A DNA stretch of 8,368 bases, from contig LDXR01000034.1 of NCBI GenBank assembly GCA_001443495.1, forward strand, positions 1 to 8,368, written 5' to 3'. Positions 1,645 through 8,368 of this stretch are shown here, piece after piece (the first letter of the stretch is position 1; each line of letters opens with the position of its first letter). This DNA is from a candidate division NC10 bacterium CSP1-5 (lineage in GTDB: Bacteria; Methylomirabilota; Methylomirabilia; Methylomirabilales; CSP1-5). Both the position numbers and the translations under genes were made by a program. The notes under the pieces are model-generated. The model saw nothing but the letters and a program-made list of their open reading frames with translations, did no database searches and was not told where the DNA came from.

Positions 1645-1708
1645 CGACACACGACTCGTGACAGGGCAAAGCTCGATATGGGCAAAACAGGGGGGTAATG
1701 TCGGGCGG

Positions 1709-1737
1709 ATTATACCCCGGGGGTCCCGGCTTGGCAA
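1709..1737 (-). promoter_or_regulatory. Sigma70-type promoter of the gcvT-gcvH-gcvPA operon
   Basis: Reading the minus strand, the -35 box is TTGCCA (1737-1732, five of six consensus bases) and the -10 box is a perfect TATAAT (1714-1709), with an optimal 17-base spacer. Transcription would start near 1702, giving a leader of about 90 bases before the gcvT ATG. The spacer is unusually GC-rich and contains CCCCGGGG. No other promoter of this quality is visible before gcvT. Confidence 0.75.
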
Positions 1738-1739
1738 GC
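1729..1739. promoter_or_regulatory. Short palindrome overlapping the gcvT -35 box (possible operator)
   Basis: GCTTG-G-CAAGC is a perfect five-base inverted repeat around one central base, and it covers the whole -35 box of the gcvT promoter. A dimeric repressor bound here would block the polymerase. The site is short and no known regulator consensus is recognised, so the operator role is only a suggestion. Confidence 0.25.
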
Positions 1740-1763
1740 GAGAAAATGCTCTGACAAAAACTC

Positions 1764-1792
1764 TTTACCCTTCCACGGCAAGGCTTTATACT
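1764..1792 (+). promoter_or_regulatory. Sigma70-type promoter of the PAS-GAF sensor gene
   Basis: TTTACC (1764-1769) and TATACT (1787-1792) are separated by 17 bases, matching four and five of six consensus positions. The predicted start near 1799 leaves an untranslated leader of about 120 bases. It is the best plus-strand promoter in the gap, and it lies downstream of the most distal in-frame ATG (1658), which supports the later start at 1919. Confidence 0.6.
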
Positions 1793-1904
1793 TGTGACGG
1801 TCAAGGCCTGCCAGGCTCATTCAATGCGGCTAATACGGCTCGTGGTCGATGGCGTGCGAGCGGGGAGATTCACAGGGTGATCACTGCGTTCTGTCGTGCC
1901 AACC

Positions 1905-1910
1905 AGGAGG
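1905..1910 (+). promoter_or_regulatory. Ribosome-binding site deciding the sensor start
   Basis: A full AGGAGG sits eight bases before the ATG at 1919. Translation from that ATG begins directly with a signal-peptide-like sequence, which together fix this start over the open frame further upstream. Confidence 0.85.
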
Positions 1911-1918
1911 GCTCATCG

Positions 1919-4030
1919 ATGCCTCAGGCGTTCACTCGCGGTGCTGTTCTATGCTGCCTTCTGCTGGCGACTGCTCCCGCGGCCTTCGCCGCGGAGAGCC
2001 GACCCCCCCTTCCCCCCGGACTCCAGACGGCCAGCCTCGCGGAACCACTGGTCCGCGAGGCAGAGATGATCGCCGTATTTCTCGTGGTGGGGTTGATCGC
2101 CTTCATGGTGTTCGTCGTTCGGACGGCCCGGCGCATTGCCAAGGAGGCGGTGGCGGCCAACCGAGACCTGCACGACAAAATCGTCGAATTGAAACGGGCG
2201 GGGGAGACACTCTCGCGATTGGTGGCGATCGTGGAGTCCTCGGATGACGCGATCATCGGCAAGACGCCCGACGGCGTCATCGTCAGCTGGAACCCGGGTG
2301 CCGAGAGGATCTACGGCTACGCGGAAGAGGAGGTGATCGGGCAGCGGGTCTCTCTCCTGGTCCCGCCCGAGCGTCCCGATGAGGCCACGCAGATTCTCGA
2401 GAAGGTCAAGCGGGGGAAGCGGGTCGAGCATTTTGAAACCGTGCGAATGAGGAAAGACGGCACGCGCATCCATGTCTCCCTTTCCGTCTCCCCCATCAGG
2501 GACGCCACCGGCCAGATTACGGGCGCCTCCACGATTGCCCGGGACATCTCCGAGCACAAGCGGGCAGAGGAGGCGGTGCGGCAAAGCGAGGAACGCTATC
2601 GGGACCTGGTGGAACACAGCGAGATTCTGATCTGTACCCATGATCCGGAGGGGAAATTGCTGACGGTCAACCGGGCCATGGTCCGGCACTTGGGCTATGA
2701 GCAGGCGGAAGAATTGCTCGGGCGCCGGCTCAGTGATTTCCTCGGCTCGGATGTGGTCGGTCTGTTCGATGCCTACCTCGACAAGGCCCTGAAGGAAGGG
2801 TATGCCGAGGGGTTCATGAAGGTCCTGACCCGGGGCGGGGAGGAAAGGGTCCTGGAGTACCGCAATTCTCTCCGGACCGAAGACCTGGCGGAGCCGATCG
2901 TGCGCGTCGTCGCCCTCGATGTCACGGAGCGCATGCGGGCGGAGAGAGAGCTGGGAAAGCGAACGAAGCAGGTGCAGGCGCTCCGGGCCATGACCTTGGA
3001 AATCACCAGGGAGCTGGACTGTAAGACCCTCCTGGGCCTCATCACGCGGCGGGCGGCAACGCTGGTGGGAGTCGTGTCGGGTGCGGTCTATCTCTGGGAC
3101 GACACGGCACAGGTCCTCTCGGCGGAGGCCGTGTACAGCCTCGGGGAGTGGACGCGAGGGAAATCCCTCAGGCTGGGAGAGGAGCTCGTGGGGGCAGTGG
3201 CCCAGCGCCGCCAGGGGGTGATGGTGAGCGACTATGACACCTCGCCATACGCCAGTTCCCTTATCGTGGAGCGGGGCCGGTTCACCGCCGCGCTCGCCGA
3301 GCCCCTGCTCTACCACGACCGGCTGGTGGGCGTGCTCACCATCAACAACGAGGGGACCTGGCATTATTTTACGGATGAGGACCGCGATCTCCTCGCCCTC
3401 TTCGCCGCCCAGGCCGCCATCGCCATCGAGAACGCCCGGCTCTTCTCCGACCTGGCGAACTCGAAGGGGCGGCTCGAGGAGCTCTACAGCCTGGGCCTAG
3501 CCATGCAGGAGCGCCGGTCGCTCCAGGCAAATCTCGACCTCATCTTGAAGGGCGCGCAGACGGTGCTCGGCTTTGACCGGATGAACGTCCTGCTGGCCGA
3601 CCCCGAAGGCAAGCGGCTCACGGCCGTGGCGAGCCTGGGCACCGACGAGCCGCTTGAACAGATCTCCGTTCCCGTTGGACCGGAGGGAGGGGGAATCGTG
3701 AAGGCCTTCCTGGAGCGGAAGGACATCGCGTGGGACGGCTCCGGTGCGGTGCCCGAGGAGTGGCGCCTCGCCCCTCCCTACTCCGAGATCAAGGCGTTCC
3801 GCTCGCGCCGCTTCGTGATCGTGCCCCTCATCGTCAGAGGGGTGGCGATCGGGGTCCTGGGCGCCGACAACAAAGTCAGCCAAAAGGCCATCCCCCCAGA
3901 AACGATCCAGCTCCTCAAGATCTTCGCCGCCCAGGCCGCCATCGCCATCGAGAACGCCCGGCTCGATGAGGAGCTGAGGGGGTACGCACAGGAGCTGGAC
4001 CGCAGGAAGCAGGGAACGAAAAAGGGCTAA
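1919..4030 (+). CDS. Membrane-anchored PAS-PAS-GAF-GAF sensor protein without output domain
   Basis: The product has 703 residues. A signal-peptide-like N-terminus (hydrophobic LCCLLLATAPAAFA, about 10-24) is followed by roughly 25 exposed residues. A membrane helix (about 50-67) comes next, then a charged linker helix leading into the cytoplasm. PAS domain 1 spans about 97-212 (SSDDAIIGKTPDGVIVSWN, then the PAC-like RKDGTRIHVSLSVSPIRD). PAS domain 2 spans about 220-338. GAF domain 1 (about 356-507) and GAF domain 2 (about 522-682) each end in FAAQAAIAIENARL. The protein stops about 20 residues after GAF 2, where a histidine kinase or GGDEF module would normally follow, so no enzymatic output is visible. 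It may signal through a partner or be a truncated kinase. No cofactor-binding residues could be assigned, so the ligand is unknown. It is transcribed divergently from gcvT, and its TAA overlaps the dabA stop tail to tail. Confidence 0.88.
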   Translation: MPQAFTRGAVLCCLLLATAPAAFAAESRPPLPPGLQTASLAEPLVREAEMIAVFLVVGLIAFMVFVVRTARRIAKEAVAANRDLHDKIVELKRAGETLSRLVAIVESSDDAIIGKTPDGVIVSWNPGAERIYGYAEEEVIGQRVSLLVPPERPDEATQILEKVKRGKRVEHFETVRMRKDGTRIHVSLSVSPIRDATGQITGASTIARDISEHKRAEEAVRQSEERYRDLVEHSEILICTHDPEGKLLTVNRAMVRHLGYEQAEELLGRRLSDFLGSDVVGLFDAYLDKALKEGYAEGFMKVLTRGGEERVLEYRNSLRTEDLAEPIVRVVALDVTERMRAERELGKRTKQVQALRAMTLEITRELDCKTLLGLITRRAATLVGVVSGAVYLWDDTAQVLSAEAVYSLGEWTRGKSLRLGEELVGAVAQRRQGVMVSDYDTSPYASSLIVERGRFTAALAEPLLYHDRLVGVLTINNEGTWHYFTDEDRDLLALFAAQAAIAIENARLFSDLANSKGRLEELYSLGLAMQERRSLQANLDLILKGAQTVLGFDRMNVLLADPEGKRLTAVASLGTDEPLEQISVPVGPEGGGIVKAFLERKDIAWDGSGAVPEEWRLAPPYSEIKAFRSRRFVIVPLIVRGVAIGVLGADNKVSQKAIPPETIQLLKIFAAQAAIAIENARLDEELRGYAQELDRRKQGTKKG
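3399..3442 (+). repeat. 44-base direct repeat, copy 1 (end of GAF domain 1)
   Basis: These 44 bases are identical to 3921-3964 and encode FAAQAAIAIENARL, the last helix of GAF domain 1. The copies are 522 bases apart, exactly 174 codons, so they share a reading frame. The rest of the two GAF domains is clearly diverged at DNA level. Confidence 0.95.
3921..3964 (+). repeat. 44-base direct repeat, copy 2 (end of GAF domain 2)
   Basis: Second exact copy of the segment at 3399-3442, encoding the last helix of GAF domain 2. Recombination between the copies would remove or duplicate one GAF domain without breaking the frame. Confidence 0.95.
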
Positions 4031-4061
4031 ACGAGACCGCAGGCGCCTGCGCCCTCTCTCG
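4019..4061 (-). terminator. Probable intrinsic terminator of the dabA transcript, embedded in both convergent coding ends
   Basis: A perfect 14-base palindrome (CGCAGGCGCCTGCG, 4038-4051) lies in the last codons of dabA. Outer arms CGAGA (4032-4036) and TCTCG (4057-4061) extend it with an asymmetric internal loop. In the dabA direction the hairpin is followed by TTTAGCCCTTTTT, whose final T-run is the complement of the lysine codons ending the sensor gene (4019-4023). In the plus direction no T-run follows, so it would serve dabA rather than the sensor. The spacing between hairpin and T-run is not ideal. Confidence 0.45.
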
Positions 4062-7000
4062 GCTCAAGACTCTGCCAGACCCCATCCCGCGTATAACCCA
4101 GGAAGTCCCCGGTCTGCGGATTCCAGGCGATCAAATGCGCCCACTGATTTTCAAACAAGTCCTTCAGGACTTTGTACTGCGCGATGATGGACCTTACCCG
4201 CGCCGGGTCTGCTTCGATAACCAGATGGGCCCGCATCGGCTCATGCAGGGGCGCCACGCCTTGAGCGGGTAACCCCGGTCGGAGATCACTCCCGGCCCCC
4301 TGCATCACCCCGATGAGGCCTACCACGTTGTGGATCGCCTTCGTCCCCGCCCCGAAGACACCGTTGATCCCGCTGTCCACGTAGGAAAAGTAGTAGTCCA
4401 AAGCGATCCCGCGCACCACCGGGACAAACGCGGCCATGATCTCCGCCAGGATGGACCCATCGGGATCTTGGTTTGGATTATAGGACTGGAGGTAGACGCG
4501 CCGGTCAAGGGAGAGCCCCCGGGTCCAGCCCCTTCGGCCGATCAGCATCACCGCACATCTGGCGTGACCCCACTCGGGATACACCTGGGCCCAGTCCACG
4601 CTTCGAGTGTGCACGTGGCGGAGCGCCTCTTCCGGGGTCGGATTTTCTGGCGCAAGGGGGAGGTGCCGGCAACGCTCCTGAGCGTGCCCTCCGCAGGCCT
4701 GAATGCAATCGTGCGCCAGGCGCCGAAACTCCTCCCGATGGGTGGGCGGGAGCTCTTCGGTATCGAAATACGTAAAGCGGTCGGCCGCCGTGTCATGTTC
4801 CGCCCCAAGGAAATAGGTGTCCTCCTGGATGCGTATCCCGCGCTCGGCCAGCACGGCTCGTACCTGAGGACTATTCAGCATGGCGGCGATCGCGCGACCG
4901 TTGGGCCCTCCCCGGCTGCCCCCGCAGGCCCCGCAGTGATACGCGGCCGCGTACGGATTATTTTCCGTGGTTGACCCGTGCCCGCAGAAGAGAATCAGGC
5001 GCGCGAAGTTGTCAGTCAGCCCGATCATCCGCAATTGCGCCTCGACCAGATCGACCTGCTCTTTGAGCGAAAAGCCCAGGGCGCCGAACTCCGCGAGTCG
5101 AGCGGCATGGTGGCGAGCATCCAGGCCGTTTGCTCGCAGCTCGTCAATCAGGGCCAGCTCCTCTCGCGTTTCGTCCTCCGTCGGCCTATCGACGCGGAGA
5201 GAGGTCCGCACGGGGGGGATGAGCGTGTCACGGAGGGTCGCCGTCAGGACGCGCGAGGACCGGGGGAGCAGGGTTCTGCCCATGACGGTGATTCCGAAGG
5301 GAACTCCCAAGAGATCGATCAGGGAGTAGGCCGTCGCAAAGTTGGTTTCGAGGCGATGGTAGATCCCGTGCAGCGCCTCTTTCCACTTCTTCCGGTATGT
5401 GTGGCGCGCCTCCCGAGTGCCCTGGCCCGCGTGGAGCCCTTCGACCACCGTGTGCCTAGGGTCGATGGGGATGGGGCACGATGGCTTCGCGATCCCGGTC
5501 GCGAGGGGGCGCAGGATCATCGGCATGGTGAAAAAGCCGGCGGTCCCTAAGGTCTCGTATTCCTCGCTCTGGGCCTCCACATGGCGTCGGATGCCCTCTT
5601 CCCGCATATCGAGGCAAAAGATCAGCTGGGCCCGCGGCCGGCCTTTTCGCTCGGGTATCTGCCGATGACGGCTGAGCAGCGTCAAGAGCTGGTCCCGGTA
5701 GTGGGATTCAAACGCCTCAAGCCAGATGGGCCCATGGGTGGCTGGCGGCAGCTCATCGAGGAGACCAAGGAGCGTATTCGGCGCCTCGGGCGGAAGCGCT
5801 CGGATGTCCTCGGCCGACAGCCCCAAGATCTGGCCGAGGCGAAAGAGCCGCCAGGCATCGTGGTAGACCCTCTCGATCGCGTGGTGCTCTTCCCCTCCGC
5901 CCTCGCGGTCGGCGTAGAGCATCTCCGCAAACCGGAACCACTGGTCCTCGCGACTCAGGCCCCTCGCCCTCCGCATATCCCCGTAGCCCCGATGGGTGAA
6001 GGCGTCCCAGTTGAGGGCGATCCTCCCCTGGGCCGTTCGCACGATCCCGCCCGCCATGAGGTCCGGCAAGCCCCCTGCCACAGCCTGGGATCGGGCAACG
6101 TACTCGCCCGGGTGGGCCAGGAAGTAGGCGGTGAGCGCCGGGACTGTCCCCTCAATATCCCATTCCTCGCGGCAGAGGGTGAACACGAGCTCCACCTCAT
6201 AGAAGAGCCGCACGGCCAGATACTGGGTGAGATCGATCGGATGATGCTGCTGCATTTCGTAGATCGGATGGGTCTCGCGCCACCCGATGATGCCGGCCCA
6301 GCCGGGGAGGGCGGCGAGGTGGAGGGTGAGATACTCGGTCCAGTACCTCTCCGGGACCCCCAGGGTCCGGAGGCTTTGGATCACGGCATCTTCCGGATGA
6401 GAAGGGAGCTGGCGAATTTTTTTGCTGGAGCCTTTGACCCCCAGGAACCAGCAGGTCAGATCCCGCTCGGCCACCTTCCGCCACGCCCCGTAAAATCCCC
6501 GCTCCCGGTCGGGCATCGGCCACCCGGCCAACCCCTCATCGAGGAAGGCGGCACACCATCGGATCATCTGGTCATTGATCGCCCCGGTGATGTGTGTCCC
6601 GGTGAGTCTGTGACACAACCCCCCCACCGTCCATTCCGGACCAATCCGCTCGATGTCCCGCTCCAGGGCTTCCCGGGCGCTCCGCACAAGGTCAGCGCGG
6701 AGGCCGCGCTGCGGCAATCCATCGCGCGCCACCGCGAGGACCTGGTGCAGCCTGGCCTCCGCCACGCGCGCTTCCTGATCCTGAAAGGCCACCGGGTCTG
6801 CGAGGCCGAGCTTCATCAGGACCGCAGCCCAGAGGGCCGAGACCGCATAGCGCTCGAGATCCTGCCGACAGTGACGCGCGATGGCCGGCAGGGTCCCTCC
6901 ACTCCCGAGCGATCGGCGTGGCAGGCTCCGGAGGAGCTGTCGTTCCTCGTGGAGCCACAGGGCTGCGAATTCTTCGCGCGTGACCGGGGCGTTCCGATCA

Positions 7001-7827
7001 GTCTCCCACAGCATGCTGTAGTGCTTCTCGATAGAGTACAGGTAGCTCGCCTGCTGGGATTGCGGGATCTCTAGATCCTCCAGGCAACGATAGCTGTGGT
7101 CCCGGGGCGTGCGCGAGATCTGCATCATCCTAGCGGCGCCGGTGGTGCGCAGCGCCTCACCGATGCGCTCACGGATGTGGCCCTCGAGATCGAGGGTCGT
7201 GTGGGCATGGACCCACTCCGCCAGGGTCCACTCCTCTCCGAGCCGCGCGAGCGTGGTCTCGAGATCGTGCGCAGCCTGCTGTAGGAGCGTCGTACGGGTC
7301 TCTGGCGGCACATCCTGGCGGAAGCGCCTGGTCGCCTTCGCATGAAATACCTGCCAGCGGAGGGTGCCGTGCGGGAGGGGGGTCACTTCATGCAGGAGCT
7401 GGGCGAGACAGACATCGCGCGCCTCCACCTGCCGCCCGCGCACCTCTATCGGGGGCCGCATGGTCAGGTGAGGGGCCGCGGTCTCCACAGCCCGCCCGAG
7501 GTCCTCTCTGGTAATACGACCGCTGGCGTAGATATGGCGGAACGCCTCGTTCGAGAGGTACCCCTGGCCTCCCAAGAGACGCTGGGCCTGGGTGACCGCG
7601 CGGTCAAAGGGGAGATACTCAAGCCCTTGCAAGGGATTCTGCGCGACAAAGCCATGAATGGGTCCCTTGGGAGGTAAGACCGTGCGCGCGCGAGCCACCT
7701 GCGATCGGAGACGCTCTCGTTCCTCGCCGACCGGCCCTTTCCTGCCCTCGGGCCCACGAAGAAAATCAAGCCACCGGAACCGCTGTTGATTGTCCTGCTC
7801 CACTGCCTCTGCCTCGCTCTCTCCCAT
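4027..7827 (-). CDS. dabA: Inorganic carbon transporter subunit DabA (DUF2309/UPF0753)
   Basis: This 1266-residue protein belongs to the DUF2309 family. Its members work with a NuoL-like membrane partner (DabB) to accumulate inorganic carbon, probably by ion-gradient-driven one-way hydration of CO2 to bicarbonate at a beta-carbonic-anhydrase-like zinc site. The zinc-site residues are visible. FCLDMREE gives C738 and D740, FCGHGSTTENN gives H950, and HCGACGGSRGGPNGR gives C965. The H-to-C spacing of 15 matches H524/C539 of Halothiobacillus DabA. The N-terminal PIHGFVAQNPLQGLEYLPFDRAV (56-78) and C-terminal PEWGHARC, SYNPNQDPDGSIL, DYYFSYVDSGINGVFGAGTKAIHNVVGLIGVMQG and DLRPGLPAQGV segments are also family hallmarks. 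It is several hundred residues longer than the Halothiobacillus protein. There are no clear membrane helices, as expected for a cytoplasmic subunit. The ATG at 7827 lacks a convincing ribosome-binding site. A GTG at 7803 with GAGG eight bases upstream is an alternative start. Confidence 0.93.
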   Translation of the reverse strand: MGESEAEAVEQDNQQRFRWLDFLRGPEGRKGPVGEERERLRSQVARARTVLPPKGPIHGFVAQNPLQGLEYLPFDRAVTQAQRLLGGQGYLSNEAFRHIYASGRITREDLGRAVETAAPHLTMRPPIEVRGRQVEARDVCLAQLLHEVTPLPHGTLRWQVFHAKATRRFRQDVPPETRTTLLQQAAHDLETTLARLGEEWTLAEWVHAHTTLDLEGHIRERIGEALRTTGAARMMQISRTPRDHSYRCLEDLEIPQSQQASYLYSIEKHYSMLWETDRNAPVTREEFAALWLHEERQLLRSLPRRSLGSGGTLPAIARHCRQDLERYAVSALWAAVLMKLGLADPVAFQDQEARVAEARLHQVLAVARDGLPQRGLRADLVRSAREALERDIERIGPEWTVGGLCHRLTGTHITGAINDQMIRWCAAFLDEGLAGWPMPDRERGFYGAWRKVAERDLTCWFLGVKGSSKKIRQLPSHPEDAVIQSLRTLGVPERYWTEYLTLHLAALPGWAGIIGWRETHPIYEMQQHHPIDLTQYLAVRLFYEVELVFTLCREEWDIEGTVPALTAYFLAHPGEYVARSQAVAGGLPDLMAGGIVRTAQGRIALNWDAFTHRGYGDMRRARGLSREDQWFRFAEMLYADREGGGEEHHAIERVYHDAWRLFRLGQILGLSAEDIRALPPEAPNTLLGLLDELPPATHGPIWLEAFESHYRDQLLTLLSRHRQIPERKGRPRAQLIFCLDMREEGIRRHVEAQSEEYETLGTAGFFTMPMILRPLATGIAKPSCPIPIDPRHTVVEGLHAGQGTREARHTYRKKWKEALHGIYHRLETNFATAYSLIDLLGVPFGITVMGRTLLPRSSRVLTATLRDTLIPPVRTSLRVDRPTEDETREELALIDELRANGLDARHHAARLAEFGALGFSLKEQVDLVEAQLRMIGLTDNFARLILFCGHGSTTENNPYAAAYHCGACGGSRGGPNGRAIAAMLNSPQVRAVLAERGIRIQEDTYFLGAEHDTAADRFTYFDTEELPPTHREEFRRLAHDCIQACGGHAQERCRHLPLAPENPTPEEALRHVHTRSVDWAQVYPEWGHARCAVMLIGRRGWTRGLSLDRRVYLQSYNPNQDPDGSILAEIMAAFVPVVRGIALDYYFSYVDSGINGVFGAGTKAIHNVVGLIGVMQGAGSDLRPGLPAQGVAPLHEPMRAHLVIEADPARVRSIIAQYKVLKDLFENQWAHLIAWNPQTGDFLGYTRDGVWQSLEPREGAGACGLV

Positions 7828-7829
7828 GG

Positions 7830-7848
7830 AAAAACCGCTGGAGGGCGG
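7830..7848 (-). terminator. Weak terminator-like hairpin in the dabB-dabA junction
   Basis: On the minus strand CCGC-CCTCCA-GCGG is followed at once by TTTTT, three bases before the dabA ATG. G-U pairs could lengthen the stem slightly. A second possible pairing (GCTGG with CCAGC) and an upstream one (GCGGGCCT with AGGCCGC) overlap it, so alternative folds are conceivable. The four-pair core is short for an efficient terminator, so partial attenuation or chance are both possible. Confidence 0.25.
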
Positions 7849-7875
7849 CCTCAGCCAGCAGGCCCGCAGAGCACA

Positions 7876-8368
7876 CTATCGAAAGATGATATATAAGCAC
7901 GCGAGCACAAAGATCCCCAAGGCCATGGCCAGCAAATAATTCTGAATCAACCCGGTCTGTAGGCGTCGCATGATATCGGACACGGTCTGGTTCAGCTCAG
8001 CCACCCAATCGACCCTCGCATCGATCGCCTCTTCATCGACCTCGGTCGAGGCCATCGCCGTGCCGCCGACGAAATGCGCGACCTGGTTCACGGTCCCATC
8101 GATCACCCGCTCGTCGATCCGGGACGAGGCACGCCCTGCACCCCCGATGAACGAGGCGACCTGATTGACCGCCCCATCGATCAATCTGCCATCCATCCTC
8201 CAGAGGAGGTGGCAGACCCAACGGAATCTCACCAGGAAGACCGCGGAGTAGATCTCGTCCAGGAAGTACCGACGAAAGAGGACCACATAGAGCGTCGACG
8301 AGCGAAACGGCAGCTCCCACCACTGGAGGTACGAGACATAGGCAAGCCCGATCCCCGCCGCTGCCACC
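7876..8368 (-). CDS. NuoL/DabB-like proton-translocating membrane subunit, C-terminal part
   Basis: The gene enters from the right edge and only its last 163 residues are present. They match the C-terminal part of NADH-quinone oxidoreductase subunit L (NuoL/NdhF) and related subunits. YFLDEIY follows the last core helices, then comes the extension MDGRLIDGAVNQVASFIGG, then LQTGLIQNYLLAMALGIFVLACLYIIF as a final membrane helix, ending in TAG. Such subunits form ion channels in complex I. The same fold acts as DabB, the membrane partner of DabA. The position 48 bases before dabA on the same strand argues for DabB. The well-developed complex I type C-terminus also allows a true NuoL in a nuo cluster. 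The extension contains three 26-residue repeats. Confidence 0.85.
   Translation of the reverse strand, partial: VAAAGIGLAYVSYLQWWELPFRSSTLYVVLFRRYFLDEIYSAVFLVRFRWVCHLLWRMDGRLIDGAVNQVASFIGGAGRASSRIDERVIDGTVNQVAHFVGGTAMASTEVDEEAIDARVDWVAELNQTVSDIMRRLQTGLIQNYLLAMALGIFVLACLYIIFR
7954..8187 (-). repeat. Threefold 26-residue repeat in the NuoL/DabB C-terminal extension
   Basis: Three successive 78-base units encode RLIDGAVNQVASFIGG.., RVIDGTVNQVAHFVGG.. and the degenerate EAIDARVDWVAEL... The first two are close (IDG-VNQVA-F-GG, then AS near the end), while the third keeps only the ID-V-VA pattern. The repeats sit between the last core membrane helices and the terminal one, where NuoL carries its lateral segment. 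Confidence 0.75.

Follow-up and report, generated by a model that had tools for sequence, protein, structure and literature searches.

The window analysed here is the whole of contig C34 (LDXR01000034.1), 8,368 bases within the 2.77-Mb genome of the candidate division NC10 bacterium CSP1-5, of the Methylomirabilota. On its minus strand, read from the right, the 3' part of a nuoL-like gene (7876-8367) is separated by 48 bp from a dabA gene (4027-7827), and the question raised by this locus is which kind of membrane subunit serves its DabA. An earlier note on this sequence had taken the two genes for a likely DabB-DabA carbon uptake pair with an unusually long DabA, and had also considered a DUF2309 subunit, as it called DabA, attached to a complex I-like assembly. 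As judged from sequence, the locus probably encodes a DAB/MpsAB-type, membrane-potential-driven, one-way CO2-hydrating unit, in which DabB has been replaced by a duplicated and modified copy of the host's own NuoL. Below, G000 is the window's genome, G004 a congener (records JAKEGQ, locus L016), G016 a member of another family of the same order, and G099 a genome outside the Methylomirabilota that carries dabA in locus L039; the sampled phylum of a further genome, G274, comprised seven genomes.

Identity of the membrane partner

The partner fragment in the window was recognised as a NuoL C-terminus by TIGR01974 (E 1e-14) and includes the lateral helix and the last transmembrane (TM) helix, in agreement with the complex I type C-terminus ascribed to it before. 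Position 8368 is the contig end, the right-hand neighbours are absent from the G000 assembly, and the missing 5' half of the gene was not found when searched for across the G000 genome. As the fragment is too short to pass NuoL cut-offs, the full-length tests used the L016 copy from G004, which is complete (752 residues) and lies immediately upstream of dabA. This protein exceeded both curated NuoL cut-offs (TIGR01974, 702.7 vs. 407.5; NF005141, 719.8 vs. 556). Two DabBs that were tested fell short of the NuoL cut-offs (348 and 191), and the Mrp-linked NuoL/MrpA-like protein of G099 passed TIGR01974 at 470. The PDB matches of the L016 partner scored 429 bits for complex I NuoL and 133 bits for DabB2.

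In a tree with the NuoL/NdhF proteins of E. coli, Thermus, Paracoccus and Thermosynechococcus as outgroups, the L016 partner fell inside complex I NuoL (support 100/99) and was grouped with the long-helix NuoLs of its own order (84/95). The approximately unbiased (AU) test with the same outgroups rejected a clade of DabB plus the partner (p-AU 0.0005). Clearly, the partner lies in complex I NuoL and not in the DabB clade, and the likely DabB identity given to it in the earlier note has to be abandoned. The phylogenetic placement that the note had proposed for both proteins gave, in the case of DabA, a deep branch of its own, on which the Methylomirabilota DabAs form a single clade (100/100). 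The plain reading of the partner's position would be that a native nuoL was duplicated and that one copy took the place of DabB.

The gene order is kept in three genomes of two families, as nuoL-dabA in G000 and G004 and as nuoL-mpsC-dabA in G016, where mpsC (L038:599-1096; PF10057, 117.7 bits) lies between dabA and a nuoL with two helix units (see below); mpsC does not stand between nuoL and dabA in G000 or G004. The order in G016 recalls the mpsABC genes of Staphylococcus aureus; there, mpsC can be dispensed with, and a carbonic-anhydrase-deficient E. coli is rescued by mpsAB (PMC6689103). Two nuo clusters were found in G000, both on contig C5, with one NuoM and two NuoN in total, and no PF00361 gene other than the window nuoL was found in G000 outside these clusters. 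Because each C5 cluster has its own NuoL, the window nuoL is not the respiratory complex's only NuoL. It is very improbable that the neighbourhood is incidental, with nuoL serving an ordinary complex I and dabA acting alone or with another membrane subunit. Although nuoL and dabA are not fused but separated by 48 bp, and no DabB-clade gene was found in G000 for comparison, such a reading has to contend with an order conserved across two families, with mpsC as a companion in one genome, with the NuoLs already present in both complex I clusters, and with the lack of another PF00361 gene outside these clusters that could serve DabA.

DabA and the proposed proton path

The window DabA matched the Pfam family DabA (PF10070) at 822.6 bits, far above the 25-bit cut-off, and the sole PDB relative found by sequence was DabA2 of Halothiobacillus neapolitanus (9rd0_A, 271 bits). 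In a multiple sequence alignment (MSA) on 9rd0_A numbering, the four zinc-site residues named in the earlier note, C738, D740, H950 and C965, aligned to C351, D353, H524 and C539 of DabA2, and R742 aligned to R355. The H-to-C spacing of 15 residues is identical in the two proteins, so that the note's account of this site was confirmed. Mutation of these zinc ligands and of the Asp-Arg dyad impaired DAB2 function (PMC13144422). In the membrane finger, the position of E444 is occupied by D838, a conservative change that retains an acid. Asp stands there in every Methylomirabilota copy and in G099, and Glu in the DabA2-type proteins; one entire DabA subclade has no acid at this position.

With 1266 residues, the window DabA is indeed well above the Halothiobacillus form, but its length is not a sign of rarity: sizes of 1,006-1,035 and 1,084-1,104 residues are usual in the phylum of G099, and like sizes occur in other phyla. 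Length was thus rejected as the key novelty, forms of 1000-1100 residues being common. Of the earlier suggestion of a variant Dab system, the unusual partner stands and the length does not, and the note's alternative, in which the DUF2309 subunit is attached to an assembly resembling complex I, came closer. Most of the excess length of the window DabA sits in one N-terminal hinge (MSA). This hinge measures 267 residues in the window against 9 in DabA2; G016 has one of 336 residues, and the majority of the remaining long forms have 51-136. A partial internal duplication in this hinge is possible, as hinted at by a weak self-BLAST match (E 4e-4) of part of it to the segment that follows. The DabA of G016 is longer still than that of the window, 1203 residues being read before the contig ends. 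On contig C2 of genome G463 (137.6-140.3 kb), a DabA homologue is broken across several frames, and is probably a decayed gene or lies on a contig rich in sequencing errors.

All seven residues of the cytosolic half-channel that were mutated in DAB2 (S256, H260, K310, S316, H339, H343 and K347) are kept in the L016 partner, and so are the ion-pair residues of NuoL. The Lys-Asp pair of TM12 (E. coli K399/D400), present in 31 of the 31 other Methylomirabilota NuoLs, is replaced by Q397/R398 in this protein, a comparison that was made after the fact. This pair is reported to be important for complex I activity (cited in PMC13144422), and in DAB2 it is absent and replaced by the DabA finger acid Glu444 (PMC13144422). 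As DAB2 swaps the same pair for the finger acid, the loss of Lys-Asp from the NuoL copy and the finger acid D838 fit together.

We propose that DabA would dock on the NuoL copy via its membrane finger, that protons would flow inward through the NuoL copy and the finger, and that this flow would drive the conversion of CO2 to bicarbonate in DabA. G000 encodes a form I RuBisCO with an adjacent small subunit, RbcS, and therefore a supply of bicarbonate or CO2 would be useful; the bicarbonate produced by DabA may feed this enzyme. The structure of a DAB was solved only in 2026, and the present loci bear on how the DAB membrane partner arose from parts of complex I. A NuoL native to the cell seems to have been recruited to serve DabA, and what it has lost at TM12 agrees with the DAB2 structure, which makes the coupling model testable through partner exchange.

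Several points weigh against this proposal. Only 3 of the 95 Methylomirabilota genomes carry dabA, and in all three the upstream side of the DabA-linked nuoL ends at a contig end. The window's genome is without the N-terminal two thirds of the partner, and the TM12 change is seen in L016 only. In this same L016 protein, E144 of NuoL, which is Ile in DabB2, is retained, and an AlphaFold2 model of it from a two-sequence input had a pLDDT (predicted local distance difference test) of 37. R653, L658 and P704 of DabA2 are Y, H and F in the window DabA. Finally, the AU test gave p 0.08 before the NuoL outgroups were included, and the difference from the value obtained with them shows that the outgroups matter. 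As regards the changed DabA residues, position 658 is Gln/His in ordinary beta-carbonic anhydrases (PMC13144422), and Tyr at the Arg653 position is also found in two actinobacterial DabAs. The His at the reportedly strict Leu658 is shared by the window DabA and a separate DabA subclade (L034, L042-L045, L047) without the finger acid.

The closest DabA outside the phylum by alignment score was that of G099, a protein of 1004 residues encoded in an operon (L039:2-8811) that also holds genes for a NuoL/MrpA-like protein and for several Mrp-type subunits, E, B and D among them. With its DabA in an Mrp operon, G099 offers another instance of DabA associated with an ion-translocating complex of several subunits, so that the window would not be the only case. 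Multi-subunit complexes had already been predicted in a previous study of gene neighbourhoods, in which PF10070 genes stood beside NuoL and NuoM homologues (PMC5700660), and nothing specific on a Methylomirabilis DabA or on a DabA-Mrp association was found in the literature searched.

DabA could also have joined an entire complex I as an extra subunit, with the modified NuoL at the distal place and with CO2 hydration driven by redox reactions, as by CupA on cyanobacterial NDH-1MS. This would account for the true NuoL character of the partner, which has the lateral helix by which NuoM and NuoN are braced, and for the presence of NuoM and two NuoN on C5 with no spare antiporter set outside it, and the multi-subunit Mrp operon around the nearest foreign DabA would be a parallel. 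However, at none of the three loci was a nuo gene found beyond dabA, the companion in G016 is mpsC and not a nuo gene, and the TM12 pair reported to be important for complex I activity is gone from the partner, so that we consider a whole complex I with DabA unlikely.

The lateral helix in 26-residue units

Helix length was counted as the residues from the DEIY motif to QTG, before the last TM helix. It is 51 residues (one unit) or 76-77 residues (two units) in the ordinary NuoLs of Methylomirabilota. Among the DabA-linked NuoLs it is 76 residues (two units) in G016, 102 (three units) in the window and 180 (six units) in G004, each unit having 26 residues. The array in L016 has a period of exactly 78 bp. 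This tandem repetition was absent from the earlier note, and a repeated-helix tail was not found in any of the DabA-linked partners examined from other phyla. Six units are unlikely to be an assembly artefact, by collapse or expansion, because the longest exact repeat within the array is only 50 nt and the record gives k101.

Regular units differ mostly by synonymous changes (nonsynonymous divergence, dN, about 0.06-0.3 vs. synonymous divergence, dS, about 0.3-0.8), and thus the helix units are under purifying selection. Over the 159 residues of the array, the hydrophobic face keeps its register with a rotation of 97 degrees from one residue to the next, which makes seven turns per 26 residues. 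A 26-residue insertion in the lateral helix was reported for an enlarged complex I with one extra pumping subunit (PMC9040806), and it is debated whether the lateral helix of complex I acts as a piston or not (PMC3274701). Of the features of this 2M-type enlarged complex I, the 26-residue extension is present here; a second NuoM is not, G000 having one.

More tentatively, the long amphipathic helix might lie along neighbouring antiporter-like subunits, or along more copies of itself, and hold a larger assembly together. The idea is attractive because the step exactly matches 26 residues, but the one NuoM and two NuoNs of G000 are all in the C5 nuo clusters. We regard as rather doubtful a hybrid machine in which DabA would sit on NuoL and a helix of three to six units would align several antiporter-like subunits or several DabA-NuoL copies. 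If such a machine existed, CO2 hydration would be coupled to more than one proton path; the whole would resemble an arm of complex I that yields bicarbonate in place of electron transfer, and its length would be set by the number of units.

A serious rival, to which we give a good chance that still falls short of an even one, is that the long helix is a relic freed from constraint, which gains and loses 78-bp units through recombination and spans no other subunit. The change from three to six units between congeners, the close similarity of the tandem units and the absence of obvious extra antiporter subunits in the genome for them to span fit well with this. A relic would not, however, be expected to keep a unit length of exactly 26 residues, a dN well below dS between units and a hydrophobic face in register over 159 residues, nor to match the step reported per extra pumping subunit of complex I (PMC9040806). 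This explanation bears on the helix alone and does not conflict with the remainder of the DAB-type unit proposed above. Exact 26-residue steps among close relatives offer a natural experiment on the role of the lateral helix.

The two C5 nuoLs of G000 (L009:10380-12299 and L010:3614-5605) share 97.5% identity along 1,692 nt and then part ways at the lateral helix, which has one unit in one and two in the other, as if gene conversion stopped at the complex-specific tail. The C5 cluster at 45-60 kb encodes the one-unit NuoL and a NuoN and lacks NuoM, and the other cluster has L, M and N, with the two-unit NuoL. A congener, G003, has three antiporter-like genes per nuo cluster.

Locus layout and known systems

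The features of the window are collected in Table 1. No promoter-like site was found when the 48-bp gap between nuoL and dabA was scanned. Downstream of dabA, the window carries a gene for a PAS/GAF protein (1658-4030, plus strand), then gcvT and gcvH. The stop codon of the former overlaps that of dabA tail to tail by four bases; its product is of the PAS-PAS-GAF-GAF type, and no kinase, cyclase or other output domain was found in it. A PAS-PAS-GAF-GAF gene also adjoins dabA in the congener (L017). Between gcvH and gcvT (428-501) lie 7-bp tandem repeats of GTTCAGA and CCATGAA. Contamination is an unlikely origin of the contig, because its tetranucleotide composition correlates at 0.96 with that of C5 of the same genome and the congener shares the locus.

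Table 1. Coordinates of the predicted features in the window.
Feature	Position	Strand	Basis
dabA (PF10070), 1266 residues, cytoplasmic beta-carbonic-anhydrase-like subunit	4027..7827	-	open reading frame, Pfam, PDB DabA2 match, tree
nuoL-type partner gene; final 163 codons with stop, truncated at its 5' side by the contig end	7876..8367	-	open reading frame; 90% identity to L016:19-2274 over shared part
Lateral-helix array, three 26-residue units (8104-8181, 8026-8103, 7948-8025)	7948..8181	-	repeat and tail alignment
Final transmembrane helix (NuoL TM16-like), around GLIQNYLLAMALGIFVLACLYIIFR	7879..7951	-	sequence; aligned NuoL tails
DabA N-terminal hinge insert, residues 133-399; weakly similar to residues 377-421	6631..7431	-	MSA occupancy; self-BLAST E 4e-4
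Zinc/dyad motif C738-D740-R742 (DabA2 C351, D353, R355)	5602..5616	-	MSA on 9rd0_A numbering
D838, membrane finger, position of DabA2 E444	5314..5316	-	MSA
H950 and C965, zinc ligands (DabA2 H524, C539)	4933..4980	-	MSA
H1088, position of DabA2 L658	4564..4566	-	MSA

Among known systems, cyanobacterial NDH-1MS resembles the proposed unit in that a CO2-hydrating protein works with a NuoL-type subunit, but it is driven by ferredoxin oxidation, and a redox arm is not in evidence here. To our knowledge, CupA of NDH-1MS does not belong to PF10070. The Mrp-operon DabA of G099 shares with the window DabA the Asp at the finger and an association with a multi-subunit ion-translocating system; its partners, in contrast, are Mrp subunits and a NuoL/MrpA-like protein without the repeated helix, and it has Leu at the 658 position. 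The 2M complex I of Nitrospira and Complex_I_3 of Ca. Manganitrophaceae (PMC9040806) have the same 26-residue extension of the lateral helix, but here it is repeated to three and six units in a NuoL beside dabA, with no set of extra pumping subunits known for it.

The MpsAB(C) system of Staphylococcus aureus (PMC6689103) is likewise a PF10070 and PF00361 pair, and G016 shares with it an MpsC (PF10057) gene as well. It differs from the present loci in that MpsC stands between the pair in G016 and was not seen in the window, and in that the membrane partner here is a NuoL. With DAB2 of H. neapolitanus (9rd0; PMC13144422), the window shares the DabA fold family, the zinc site with the Asp-Arg dyad, the finger acid and a NuoL-type membrane partner with identical cytosolic half-channel residues. 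Contrary to DabB2, the window-type partner belongs to the NuoL clade and not to the DabB clade, and keeps E144, the full lateral helix and the final TM helix; the window DabA has Asp, His and Tyr in the places of Glu444, Leu658 and Arg653, respectively, and a hinge of 267 residues. What is new here, as far as sequence can tell, is a predicted DAB-type system with a complex I NuoL as its membrane subunit, in which the lateral helix reaches as many as six units of 26 residues.

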